From a virus: 40,203 nt of DNA. The notes beneath the pieces were generated by a model, which saw nothing but the letters and a program-made list of their open reading frames with translations, did no database searches and was not told where the DNA came from. The translations under genes and the position numbers were made by a program. Position 1 is the first letter of the stretch. The number at the start of each line of letters is the position of its first letter. Shown one piece after another: positions 30,138 to 36,682 of this stretch. The stretch covers positions 1 through 40,203 of IMG/VR virus record IMGVR_UViG_3300027763_000008, one strand, 5' to 3'.

Positions 30138-30167
30138 ATTATAGCTACCCAAAAAGTTTTAAGTAAA
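30138..30167 (-). promoter_or_regulatory. Sigma70-like promoter of the late unit
   Basis: On the minus strand a perfect -10 TATAAT (30138-30143) lies 18 bases after TTTACT (30162-30167, four of six matches to TTGACA). The transcript would start near 30131 and give a leader of about 110 bases before the GNAT-like gene. It suggests late transcription by host RNA polymerase, in agreement with the lack of a phage polymerase. Confidence 0.7.
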
Positions 30168-30195
30168 AATTTTTATATAGGATTCTTATACAGAG

Positions 30196-30204
30196 TTATC
30201 CACA
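30196..30204 (+). promoter_or_regulatory. Perfect DnaA box
   Basis: TTATCCACA, the strongest DnaA-box sequence. A degenerate copy, CTATCCACT, follows after two bases. It lies about 30 bases upstream of the late promoter -35 box, in non-coding DNA. It may mark a host-DnaA-dependent origin or let DnaA act on the late promoter. Confidence 0.5.
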
Positions 30205-30219
30205 GGCTATCCACTTGCT

Positions 30220-30240
30220 ATAGGTAGAAACCCTAATAGA
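30220..30240 (-). promoter_or_regulatory. TATTAGGG dyad, late-side copy
   Basis: On the minus strand CTATTAGGGTTTCTACCTATAG forms an imperfect inverted repeat (CTAT-AGG/CCTATAG). TCTATTAGGGTTT is shared base for base with the copy at 37552-37563. It lies 53 bases upstream of the late promoter -35 box and points the same way. Confidence 0.5.
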
Positions 30241-30884
30241 ATGATTACGGGGCCATCATCCAGCCCTTGGGAAGGCAGGTAGCTTACCAACCCAGATAAA
30301 CGTACTGAATCCATCAGTCTCTCTAGTAAGCAATGAACGGGAACATACAGGTGGAGCCCATCAGGGTTAAGTTAGATAAACAAGGTGCTACTTCTTTAAA
30401 GAAGAAAAAACAGTGGATGCCATAGTTCGTCCACAGTTAACCATCACACAATCCCCACCAAGACAGTTACCTAAAGAGCAGTGTTGTTTGTGTACAACAG
30501 GAAAAGTTTTAGAGAAATTTCGGGGATGGGGGAGTGGGCCCCCCCTTTTTGAACCAGTTCCAGTGCTACCCCCCCCCCACCAGTGTGTGCCTAGTGTGTG
30601 CCATGGGGGGTTTGTGAATGAGAGTCATTCTCATTTAGGGGGTGTGAGGGCGCAGGGAAAAGGGCAACACTAGGGGCCCACTCACTTAGTCACTCTTAAA
30701 AAGCCTGGCAATGCAGACAAACCCAGTGCAAAGCCCTGTAAATACTAGGTCTGTGGTGTTCTAAGGTTATGCAATAAATGCATAGTTTGGGGCTTGCTTG
30801 CTTATGCCACTGTGTGCCAGGTTATGCCCTGTTGAAATTATCTTGAATAATCCCAAACAATCAAGTGTAATTGACTACTAACAT

Positions 30885-30940
30885 TGTATTAGGGTTAACC
30901 CTTAAGGGTTTAAAGCTGTGTTTATTAGGGTTTGTCCCTA
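30885..30940 (+). promoter_or_regulatory. Two TATTAGGG dyads upstream of the GP88 unit
   Basis: TTGTATTAGGGTTAACCC begins at 30885 and runs into the palindromes AGGGTTAACCCT (30891-30902) and AACCCTTAAGGGTT (30897-30910). A second copy, TTTATTAGGGTTTGTCCCTA, lies at 30921-30940. Both precede the first gene of the rightward unit by about 80-130 bases. They look like operator or activator sites; no confident promoter hexamers were found nearby. Confidence 0.55.
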
Positions 30941-31685: not shown

Positions 31686-32351
31686 ATGCGAATTATCCCC
31701 ATTATCCCAATGACCAAAAAACAAGCTGCCACTGTCTGTGGCACTCTCACAAGCACAAGCAAAATGCCTTGTAACTCTTACAGTCTGCCAACAGAGGCTT
31801 GCATAACAGGTTTCAAAATGGCACAGATTAAAGGCTCTATTTGCTCTATGTGCTATGCGGATAAAGGTTTTTATAAAATGTATGCGAATAATATTAAACC
31901 TGCACAATTTGCCCGTTTAGACAGCATATTAGGCGCACACTGGGTTTCCGGTATGGTGTCGCATATTGGAAATGATGCCTATTTTCGCTGGCATGATTCG
32001 GGTGATCTGCAAAGCCTAGAACATTTTGAGAAAATTGTGTCTGTGTGCGCTGCCACACCCAAAACAAGTCACTGGCTGCCAACTAGGGAATACGGAATTA
32101 TTAAGGCATTTATTGAAAAACATGGAAAGAATGCAATCCCTAAAAATTTAACTGTGCGCTTGTCTGCCATGTACCCTGACAAGCCCGTTACTGTGCCTGT
32201 ATCGCTGCAGGGTATCGCTGGTGTGACTGTGTCTAATGTGCATACATCAAAACCCATGGGGAATGTATGCAAAGCCCCTGCACAGAATGGAGAGTGCAAA
32301 GATTGCAGATTGTGCTGGTCTAATGCTGTGGTGTCATATGCGCTGCATTAA
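31686..32351 (+). CDS. GP88-family protein (Cys-rich, function unknown)
   Basis: A 221-residue member of the phage GP88 family. Marks are SKMPCNSYSLP (residues 25-35), CSMCYADKG (53-61), FRWHDSGDLQ (100-109), HWLPTRE (129-135) and a C-terminal cluster with Cys 195, 204, 207 and 210 (C-x8-C-x2-C-x2-C). The Cys pattern suggests a bound metal or iron-sulfur cluster. The family is found in actinobacterial and many aquatic phages; no activity is established. The start uses CCGAAAGTAA instead of a normal ribosome site. A terminator follows. Confidence 0.85.
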   Translation: MRIIPIIPMTKKQAATVCGTLTSTSKMPCNSYSLPTEACITGFKMAQIKGSICSMCYADKGFYKMYANNIKPAQFARLDSILGAHWVSGMVSHIGNDAYFRWHDSGDLQSLEHFEKIVSVCAATPKTSHWLPTREYGIIKAFIEKHGKNAIPKNLTVRLSAMYPDKPVTVPVSLQGIAGVTVSNVHTSKPMGNVCKAPAQNGECKDCRLCWSNAVVSYALH

Positions 32352-32365
32352 TTAAATAAACCTTT

Positions 32366-32392
32366 AAAAGCCCGTTTTTACGGGTTTTTTTT
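32366..32392 (+). terminator. Terminator of the GP88 unit
   Basis: AAAAGCCCGT pairs with ACGGGTTTTT around TTTT, followed by further T for eight in total. It ends rightward transcription 15 bases after the GP88 stop. Confidence 0.92.
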
Positions 32393-32700
32393 GGTCTGCA
32401 GGTGCTGGGTTATCCCTGTGCCTGTTTTTCGCTTTGCTGGGTGTCTGGCAGGGCTTTGCTGTGTCTGTCTGTGTGGCAGGTGCTGTGCTTTGTCTGTGTG
32501 CCTGTTTTTAAGGGCTTGCAGGTGCTGGGTGTGTGTGCGCTTGTCTGTGTGCCTGGGTGTGGCTTGTCTGTGCCTGTGGTGCGCTGTGTGTGGTGTCTGT
32601 GTGCCTGTAGTGGCAGGTTTTGCGCTGTGTGGTGCTGCAGGTGCTGCGCTGTGGTCTGCGCTTATGCGCTGCGCTGTGGTGCTTGGGTGTGCTTTTATCA
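32393..32700 (+). repeat. A-depleted GT-rich block with internal repeats
   Basis: About 300 bases with roughly 12 A on the plus strand, including 60 bases (32521-32580) with none. TGTCTGTGTGCCTG occurs exactly at 32491, 32542 and 32594 (period 51-52), and TGCAGGTGCTGGGT at 32397 and 32517. Open frames through it on both strands are Cys/Val- or His/Thr-rich and lack ribosome sites, so I treat it as non-coding. It lies directly after a terminator and before iterons. The block could be an origin, a pause or termination zone, or a source of a G/U-rich RNA. Confidence 0.75.
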
Positions 32701-32771
32701 ATAAAAACAAGGGTTTACAGCATTTTTTAAATGAAATGGATTATATGAGAGATAATATACCCATTAACTTT

Positions 32772-32834
32772 TTGATTATCTCGATTATGTGCCCGCCACT
32801 TTTCGATTATATCGATAATATTATGTCGATTATC
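32772..32834 (+). repeat. Nonamer iterons TCGATTATN
   Basis: Five copies of a nine-base unit: TTGATTATC (32772), TCGATTATG (32781), TCGATTATA (32803), TCGATAATA (32812) and TCGATTATC (32826). Copies 1-2 and 3-4 are direct tandem pairs. The stretch is AT-rich and non-coding. Clustered short direct repeats in AT-rich DNA are typical of initiator or partition-protein binding sites. Confidence 0.75.
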
Positions 32835-32856
32835 TCGTGTTCTGCCAATTTGCAAA

Positions 32857-32895
32857 AGGACCCCCCCCTCAAAAAGTTTTGGGGCCTCTTTTTTT
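32857..32895. terminator. Likely bidirectional terminator between converging units
   Basis: A C-run (AGGACCCC) pairs with GGGGCCT (bulged A) over an A/T loop, followed by seven T on the plus strand and TTTT on the minus. It lies just beyond the last gene of the leftward early unit. Confidence 0.7.
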
Positions 32896-32906: not shown

Positions 32907-33266
32907 TTATGGAAATCTCAGAAGATAAAGTGTCGAATCTATTAGCTGCTGGATTTCATCTGCAATGTTCTGTATCTCAGAATCCTGCGGTAATACTTTG
33001 CGCTTTTCCTCAAAGTACTCTGACAACTCATGCAACTCACGTTTGCCAGTGTCGGCAGGTGTGTGGTATGTCGCAGGGAATTCTAGAGTTGAATCAAACT
33101 TGCCTTGGATGGCTTCGACTAGATCATCGACCTTGCCTGGTAACTCTTCGTAAAATGTGCCAAGGGCTTTATGTTCCGCATAGGATTTTGATTGCCAATG
33201 CAAAATGTGGGTGTTGGTCGCAGAGTGCAACAAGGTCAGGATTAGATCACCAATTTCATTGTCCAT
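32907..33266 (-). CDS. Ferritin-like helical protein (DUF5856-type)
   Basis: A 119-residue helical protein. It contains LLHSATNTHILHWQSKSYAE (residues 12-31), HKALGTFYEELPGKVDDLVE (32-51) and EIQNIADEIQQLIDSTLYLL at the end. The repeated His/Glu in a helical bundle resembles small Dps-like phage proteins. It could bind iron or protect DNA, but residue-level metal sites are not clear. It is the last gene of the leftward early unit and overlaps the nuclease gene by 11 bases. Confidence 0.72.
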   Translation of the reverse strand: MDNEIGDLILTLLHSATNTHILHWQSKSYAEHKALGTFYEELPGKVDDLVEAIQGKFDSTLEFPATYHTPADTGKRELHELSEYFEEKRKVLPQDSEIQNIADEIQQLIDSTLYLLRFP

Positions 33267-35656: not shown

Positions 35657-35915
35657 GCTTTTCTCCCATAATTAAAAATTTAGCAGCCCAAAAAAAACCT
35701 ATTGCTTCATTATTTAATTTGTATTTGTTTAATTTTTCAGCTTTAAGTGATGCTATTTTTCTTTTATTTGATTCTTGTTCAAGTTTTTGTATACATTTTT
35801 CTTTTTCAAAATCTGCAATCAAAGAAGCAAAAGCTTGTATTCGCATATCAAATTCAGCATCTTGGGCATCCCATCCAGCTTCAACTGCCATGCAAATAAT
35901 GTCATTTTTATTCAT
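35622..35915 (-). CDS. Small early protein, unknown
   Basis: A 97-residue protein beginning MNKNDIICMAVEAGWDAQDA, then FASLIADFEKEKC and a Lys-rich helical region. Its 5' part resembles the HEREAC-type protein at 33749-33967 (IIxMAxxAG, FAxLxA-xExxxC), so the two are probably paralogues. It overlaps the replication initiator gene by four bases. The 3' half is more AT-rich and Lys-rich than its neighbours. Confidence 0.72.
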   Translation of the reverse strand: MNKNDIICMAVEAGWDAQDAEFDMRIQAFASLIADFEKEKCIQKLEQESNKRKIASLKAEKLNKYKLNNEAIGFFWAAKFLIMGEKLDIRRRNQNLG

Positions 35916-36682
35916 GCTTTTCTCCTTAACTCAGCCATCTTTGCCAATACCTCAAATGGTATGGGGGCAGCCTTTTTATCGTCTGCCTTTATCTTTTCCA
36001 AAGCAGGGTCAGGAAGGTTTGATGGTGCAACAGTTACCCTACCAATGTCGGCAGGGTTCATTTTGGGTGCGTTTGTGCTTCTCACCCAATTGCGCCATGT
36101 AGCTTCCCAATCAAGCTTCACACCCTTTTGGCCAGGTTGAGCAATCCAATAATCTTTGAACTTTTCAAAAGTCTGTAATGGCTCTAGATCTGGTCTTTCT
36201 TTTTTACAAAAAGCTAACCATTCACCTGTAAAAAGAAAATCTGAAGAGAGGCGTGAGCCTCGCTTGTTCTTATCTATTGGTTTATGGTTTATGGTTAGTG
36301 GTTTATGGTTAGGGTTATTTTGGCTTTCATTTGGTAACCCATCAATAACCGACTGGGTTTTCTTTGGCCTACCACCTAGCTTCCCATTGTTCTTGTTTTT
36401 CTCTACTTGCTCTTGGTAGTCCTTGATCTCCACTTCTATGCGCTTATGCACATACCCTGTTTTACCCTCTTTAAAGAAGTCAGACAGTACATTTTGTAGG
36501 GATGAAAACTCCATGTCAGAACCCAAACGTAACCTACGAGAAACCACTTGGGTTTCCAAAGGTATGGGCTTTTCATCAAGGTAATACCAATCAATTAATT
36601 GGCGATAAATACCATGCTCAATCGTTGAAAGATGACTAGTGTCTTTCCGATAGTCGGCTATGTTGAACTTGTAGTAGTGCAT
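35912..36682 (-). CDS. DUF1376-type replication initiator
   Basis: A 256-residue protein. Residues 1-90 match the DUF1376 domain (MHYYKFNIADYRKDTSHLST; IYRQLIDWYYLDEKPIP), found at the N-terminus of phage and prophage replication initiators (O-protein role). A basic linker with GKLGGRPKK (101-108) and NHKP repeats (125-134) precedes a C-terminal domain (WLAFCKKERPDLEPLQTFEKF; WEATWRNWVRS) of the kind that recruits a helicase or loader. No helicase-loader gene was found, so it probably engages host proteins. The gene carries heptamer repeats at 36279-36313, as lambda O carries its origin. Confidence 0.85.
   Translation of the reverse strand: MHYYKFNIADYRKDTSHLSTIEHGIYRQLIDWYYLDEKPIPLETQVVSRRLRLGSDMEFSSLQNVLSDFFKEGKTGYVHKRIEVEIKDYQEQVEKNKNNGKLGGRPKKTQSVIDGLPNESQNNPNHKPLTINHKPIDKNKRGSRLSSDFLFTGEWLAFCKKERPDLEPLQTFEKFKDYWIAQPGQKGVKLDWEATWRNWVRSTNAPKMNPADIGRVTVAPSNLPDPALEKIKADDKKAAPIPFEVLAKMAELRRKA
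36279..36313 (+). repeat. Heptamer repeats inside the initiator gene, candidate origin
   Basis: Five successive seven-base units: GGTTTAT, GGTTTAT, GGTTAGT, GGTTTAT, GGTTAGG. The period of seven is not a multiple of three, so coding constraint does not explain it; the DNA repeat itself seems to be selected. This mirrors lambda, where initiator-binding iterons lie within the O gene. Confidence 0.65.

Follow-up and report, generated by a model that had tools for sequence, protein, structure and literature searches.

The window analysed here, a stretch of 40,203 nucleotides, is the complete, circularly assembled genome of a podovirus-like phage of ~40 kb. At the noncoding junction of two converging operons it carries an array of short repeats that cluster beyond chance, have a conserved, near-fixed spacing and are confined to this one place in the genome. 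Related phages retain an array at this place, though of differing sequence class. Judged from sequence comparisons, the array is probably a docking site for a protein other than the phage's own replication initiator. The existence of the array is the firm part of our results, whereas its role, an inferred mechanism, is put forward with modest confidence. We give a probability of roughly one in three to the reading that it is a dedicated cis-acting, putatively protein-binding array that would resemble SPP1 oriR in function, serving as a barrier to replication forks or as a late origin through a non-initiator and possibly host-encoded binder.

The phages sharing this junction are a large podovirus-like group known mainly from metagenomes. 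Among annotated records, MW202484.1, a podovirus from Manatee Spring, is nearest, and a search of bacterial genomes with terL found no relative. Terminase and portal genes were identified in the window, as were genes for RusA and for the annealing protein Sak. The first bases of the window recur as its last 127 bases; of eight close relatives examined alongside, five show the same, over 123-127 bases. The junction and the initiator gene comprise the following features:

31686-32351, +, GP88 family gene, left neighbour of the junction
32366-32389, +, terminator-like hairpin at the end of the rightward GP88-containing operon
32391-32694, +, G+T-rich, strand-skewed noncoding block, 77% G+T (by composition)
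32700-32736, +, A+T-rich flank with TTTACA/CTTACA, kept beside the array in most array-bearing relatives
32737-32744, +, extra GATTAT copy TGGATTAT, left of the five-copy array
32751-32756, +, GATAAT copy of this genome, at a position where class A relatives differ
32772-32779, +, repeat 1, TTGATTAT (one mismatch; motif match)
32781-32788, +, repeat 2, TCGATTAT (exact; motif match)
32803-32810, +, repeat 3, TCGATTAT (exact; motif match)
32812-32819, +, repeat 4, TCGATAAT (one mismatch; motif match)
32826-32833, +, repeat 5, TCGATTAT (exact; motif match)
32861-32884, +, C8 tract followed by CAAAAAGTTTTGGGG, terminator-like; a C tract is found at the junction in most relatives
32907-33266, -, DUF5856/phrog_858 gene, convergent neighbour, predicted Dps-like four-helix bundle
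35912-36682, DUF1376 primosomal/initiator-like gene
36278-36317, -, tandem 7-bp repeats AACCATA/AACCACT, four copies, in the linker of the DUF1376 gene

The octamers between 32772 and 32833 all lie on the + strand and form two pairs, with members 9 bp apart, plus one single copy. The preliminary description had listed five iterons here; their number and layout hold, but only three are exact and two carry one mismatch. Dinucleotide shuffling of the surrounding 206 bp, repeated 2000 times, never gave five copies within 63 bp, the largest number being three. Since the octamer is not enriched genome-wide (26 matches with at most one mismatch against 23.7 expected), the unusual feature is the cluster and not the octamer's frequency. 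The densest GATTAT cluster (5-6 copies per 120 bp) is located at the junction in seven of nine close complete genomes, this genome counted, and the clusters listed away from the junction in the same nine genomes hold at most two copies. When the period was left free, with the null given the same freedom, helical phasing was best at 10.0-11.5, with p values of 0.008-0.041 in four of six arrays and of 0.21 and 0.31 in the other two. At a fixed period of 10.5 bp, phasing was seen in just two of 12 rows, the class A ones. The iteron-like character proposed earlier is supported, and most classes are helically phased. An RNA element at the array was rejected: its folding is unremarkable (z -1.1 and -0.5; no stable fold) and Rfam gave no match within 30-34 kb. 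Because of this unremarkable folding the array would act, if at all, as DNA.

We then compared the junction among relatives found via the neighbouring gene. Scanning with the DUF5856 protein yielded 25 loci; three distant ones without such a junction by eye (L208-L210) were excluded before counting, and the 22 close loci left include three pairs with identical core sequences. The array is conserved in relatives: a GATTAT array is present at the same junction in 19 of the 22. By eye, these arrays fall into four classes: class A, that of the window, with repeats at offsets 0, 35, 44, 66, 75 and 89; class B, with 3-4 copies spaced 11 or 22 bp plus a distal pair that is direct or inverted depending on the genome; class C, with 5-7 mixed copies; and class D (L188), with ~23-bp units containing CCCATTAAC. 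The three relatives without GATTAT hold other motifs there, LexA-box-like and/or GGGTAAACCC-like: L187 has LexA-box-like sites with 21 bp spacing, L206 combines repeated GGGTAAACCC with one or perhaps two such sites, and both kinds of site occur in L194. LexA is a putative label for these sites in L187/G001, L206 and L194.

Within a class, the array is better conserved than the fourfold-degenerate sites of the adjoining gene. The class A array block shows 88% mean pairwise identity (n=8 sequences, two of which, L203 and L159, share the same core), whereas the adjacent gene reaches 64% at 33 fourfold-degenerate sites and 72% at third codon positions. Invariant columns make up 38 of 42 in the repeats and 49 of 81 in the spacers, and the 45-bp flank has 86% mean identity. 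In L189 and L191, ~600 inserted bases, near-identical in both, directly follow the C tract of the array and separate it from DUF5856.

The surroundings of the array agree with what had been described from the sequence: the rightward GP88 operon on the + strand converges on the DUF5856 gene on the - strand, and the neighbouring G+T-rich block is the highest-G+T 300-bp window of this genome. Such a maximum lies at the junction in eight of ten complete genomes, the exceptions being G001 and MW202484, and the sequence of the block itself varies among relatives. By eye, relatives show a similar hairpin and T run 3' of the left-hand gene. At 32.8 kb, third-position skew reveals neither a clear origin nor a clear terminus. 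The predicted structure of the DUF5856 protein is a confident four-helix bundle (pLDDT 92.6), and its best fold matches are mostly Dps proteins, with TM to query of about 0.65-0.73 and E of at least 0.03. A tract of C7-C9 (here 32861-32868) followed by CAAAAA(G)TTT is kept at the junctions of relatives, with a G run on the opposite strand; in some relatives the C tract has no evident pairing partner for a terminator hairpin.

Nearly as likely as the oriR-like reading, and ranking just below it, is an operator array, at which a transcription factor would control a promoter or block read-through between the converging operons (a roadblock or small-RNA promoter). The terminator-like hairpins flanking both sides would fit, as would a 10/12 sigma-70-like match on the - strand (32848-32820). 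However, class A relatives by eye do not preserve the -35 of this match, neither strand offers an obvious downstream gene that could be controlled, and the lack of an Rfam match in 30-34 kb likewise speaks against this reading. The GGGTAAACCC sites at the junctions of G008 and L194 resemble those at other noncoding promoter-like places in these genomes, and the LexA-box-like sites of L187/G001 lie 21 bp apart, both in favour of an operator. GATTAT, in contrast, clusters nowhere else in the genome, unlike the operator of a regulon, and no such cluster was found at other promoters.

The preliminary description had proposed an origin with initiator-binding iterons, naming the DUF1376 protein among possible binders. 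Several properties of the junction would suit a main replication origin whose repeats are read by the phage initiator: like iteron-type origins it has a number of direct repeats set in A+T-rich, noncoding DNA, with strand-skewed DNA alongside, and its noncoding place is conserved. Nevertheless, we regard this possibility as unlikely, and the DUF1376 protein did not hold up as the binder. GATTAT arrays accompany four initiator types: DUF1376, MANPWF-type, MLLQPKNW-type and a short form without N-domain. Conversely, the DUF1376 type occurs with GATTAT in this genome, L198 and L200 and without it in G001 and G008, where it goes with LexA-like/GGGTAAACCC sites. The repeat sequence therefore does not go with the initiator's DNA-binding domain, and it is mainly because array class does not track initiator type that we consider the array probably not to be bound by the phage initiator. 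Moreover, this genome's junction contains no DnaA box, while a perfect one is found at 30.19 kb.

The initiator gene contains repeats of its own, and those at 36278-36317 are a better candidate than the junction array for the initiator's binding site. By eye, relatives of the DUF1376 type have similar in-gene repeats. Initiators with a different N-terminus (L190, L202, visible only in part, and the genome of L203) carry GATACA repeats at the matching linker; G004 has a third initiator type, and G002, G005 and MW202484 have a short initiator consisting of the C-terminal part only, without the N-domain. The two repeat sets have no motif in common: no ACCATAA occurs in the junction, and one lone GATTAT/ATAATC in the initiator gene.

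For the binder itself, we searched for gene families separating array-bearing from array-lacking genomes. None of note emerged, the only one found consisting of ORFs of 55-57 aa antisense to a gene. DUF5856 was rejected as a sequence-specific binder, being 98% identical between this GATTAT genome and the array-lacking G001. A centromere or partition site, also raised in the preliminary description, is very improbable. Phased short direct repeats do resemble ParR/RHH-type sites, but the genome has no match to ParB_N (PF02195) or AAA_31/ParA (PF13614), the families to which this search was confined; nor does it show a phage integrase family or any sign of plasmid-prophage life. An attachment site was likewise dismissed, as no PF00589 integrase is present. 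Quite unlikely, too, is a role in packaging or recombination (a pac site or similar). The presence of a single dedicated site in each genome, the G+T-rich DNA and the circularly assembled contigs would be in line with it; however, the terminase gene lies about 5.3 kb away, the motif class varies among close genomes whose terL is 93-98% identical, and there are no known physical ends at the junction.

To cover the wider group we used a terminase scan, in which 59 of 78 loci were taken on and 40 with at least 6.5 kb upstream were kept; a DUF5856-like gene adjoins the junction in 39 of these 40. Together, this genome, the 22 close loci and 39 loci from the terminase scan gave 62 junction rows, reduced to 43 distinct ones after dropping eight without a C tract within 420 bp and eleven whose segment was already counted. 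Repeats are enriched left of the C tract (p<=0.01) in 30 of the 43 distinct junctions (18/19 close, 12/24 distant), whereas among the controls this held for 11 of 199 segments chosen at random and for 3 of 62 noncoding gaps elsewhere. The 13 junctions without enrichment at this threshold include 12 of the 24 distant ones, and of the 12 distant positives, two (L300, L345) have the look of low-complexity G+T DNA and not of discrete repeats. The junctions of L304 and L346 hold AGTNAGYRCTNAC-like palindromes, which cluster tightly: all 7 matches in G009 (L304) fall within 252 bases and all 5 in G010 (L346) within 274 bases. MW202484 has a third motif type, three copies of TAAAAAAGTGGCA, the third imperfect. 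In G012 (L017 record), two clusters of AGTNAGYRCTNAC-like palindromes (32667-32878 and 36308-36517) lie ~3.6 kb apart in apparently opposite orientation. Scans of viral contigs for octamer pairs and triple GATTAT returned mostly chance or unrelated arrays; some matches are the relatives themselves, some look DnaA-box-like, and L251/L257 and L086 by eye adjoin terminase-like genes. No paper on the array motif or on such junctions was found among the open-licence papers searched.

A broader proposal, which we consider rather doubtful, is that the junction houses a cassette of modular design, serving as a fork barrier or late origin. The word recognised (GATTAT, LexA-box-like, GGGTAAACCC, AGTNAGYRCTNAC palindromes, TAAAAAAGTGGCA) would be swapped at a fixed junction beside G+T-skewed DNA, independently of initiator and flanking genes, and would recruit different, probably host-encoded, proteins for the same job.

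Other conserved elements were noted in the genome. A strongly conserved, A+T-rich noncoding stretch at 30140-30420, upstream of the leftward late genes, contains the perfect DnaA box TTATCCACA at 30193, followed by a AAACCCTA element; TTATCCACA is found at about the same place in seven of the eight other close complete genomes. Near 30.27-30.39 kb, an RNA-like element aligns across 19 sequences with a predicted, covarying fold (43 pairs over the whole stretch, five with changes on both sides), and a search of Rfam gave no match for it. The stretch is a candidate structured RNA and/or DnaA-dependent origin. GGGTWWACCC/TAGGGTTTATCC palindromes occur at noncoding promoter-like places in several relatives and at 30889 and 37553 of the window; in G008 they also lie inside the junction array (32781 and 32797, rotated coordinates).

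Returning to the oriR-like reading, several copies of a sequence-specific protein would bind the array side by side, as suggested by helical phasing in four of the six arrays. Once bound, the proteins could turn this A+T-rich, transcription-shielded DNA into a rigid nucleoprotein block, next to G+T-rich DNA that is possibly recombination-prone. This block may act as a replication-fork barrier or late origin and help to switch from circle replication to recombination-dependent concatemer synthesis, alongside which the phage RusA and Sak annealing protein can be cited. The binder would be a factor other than the phage replication initiator, possibly of the host. If this is true, placement of the array is conserved while its reading protein is exchangeable, so that in phage replication or regulation the architecture of the site and the identity of its binder would be separable, and the junction would offer a testable model for the switch to concatemers in small phages. 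It also advises caution, since iteron-like repeats that adjoin a skewed block are not necessarily the origin used by the initiator when the initiator gene has repeats of its own.

Several known systems resemble parts of this arrangement. Mycobacteriophage stoperators are repressor sites in intergenic gaps that halt transcription and are scattered through the genome; our array, in contrast, is found at a single junction only. Short direct repeats in phase, set in noncoding A+T-rich DNA, likewise make up the iteron origins of plasmids and ParR-type centromeres, but here no matching Rep or Par partner was found, and the motif class is interchangeable among relatives. In phage lambda, the origin consists of tandem repeats within the initiator gene O, a likeness that belongs to the repeats at 36.28-36.32 kb and not to the junction array. 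The same holds for the in-gene origin in SPP1 gene 38, which is matched by the tandem repeats in the initiator-gene linker. SPP1 is the most fully worked-out parallel that we found. There, oriL lies within gene 38, the initiator gene, and oriR consists of intergenic direct repeats and A+T-rich DNA, flanked by transcription signals and adjoining moron genes; oriR is proposed to stall forks and start concatemer synthesis (PMC6316719, PMC3485210). One initiator protein binds both SPP1 origins. The phage studied here shares the anatomy of intergenic repeats with an A+T-rich element, transcription signals on both sides, variable genes beside them and a second repeat set in the initiator gene, as well as a phage-encoded Holliday resolvase and annealing protein. 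It differs in that its array does not follow initiator type and in the separation of the repeat sets (3.5 kb here vs 12-13 kb in SPP1). Because its two repeat sets share no motif, a defining point on which the likeness breaks down, the array may work like oriR without being a member of that kind.
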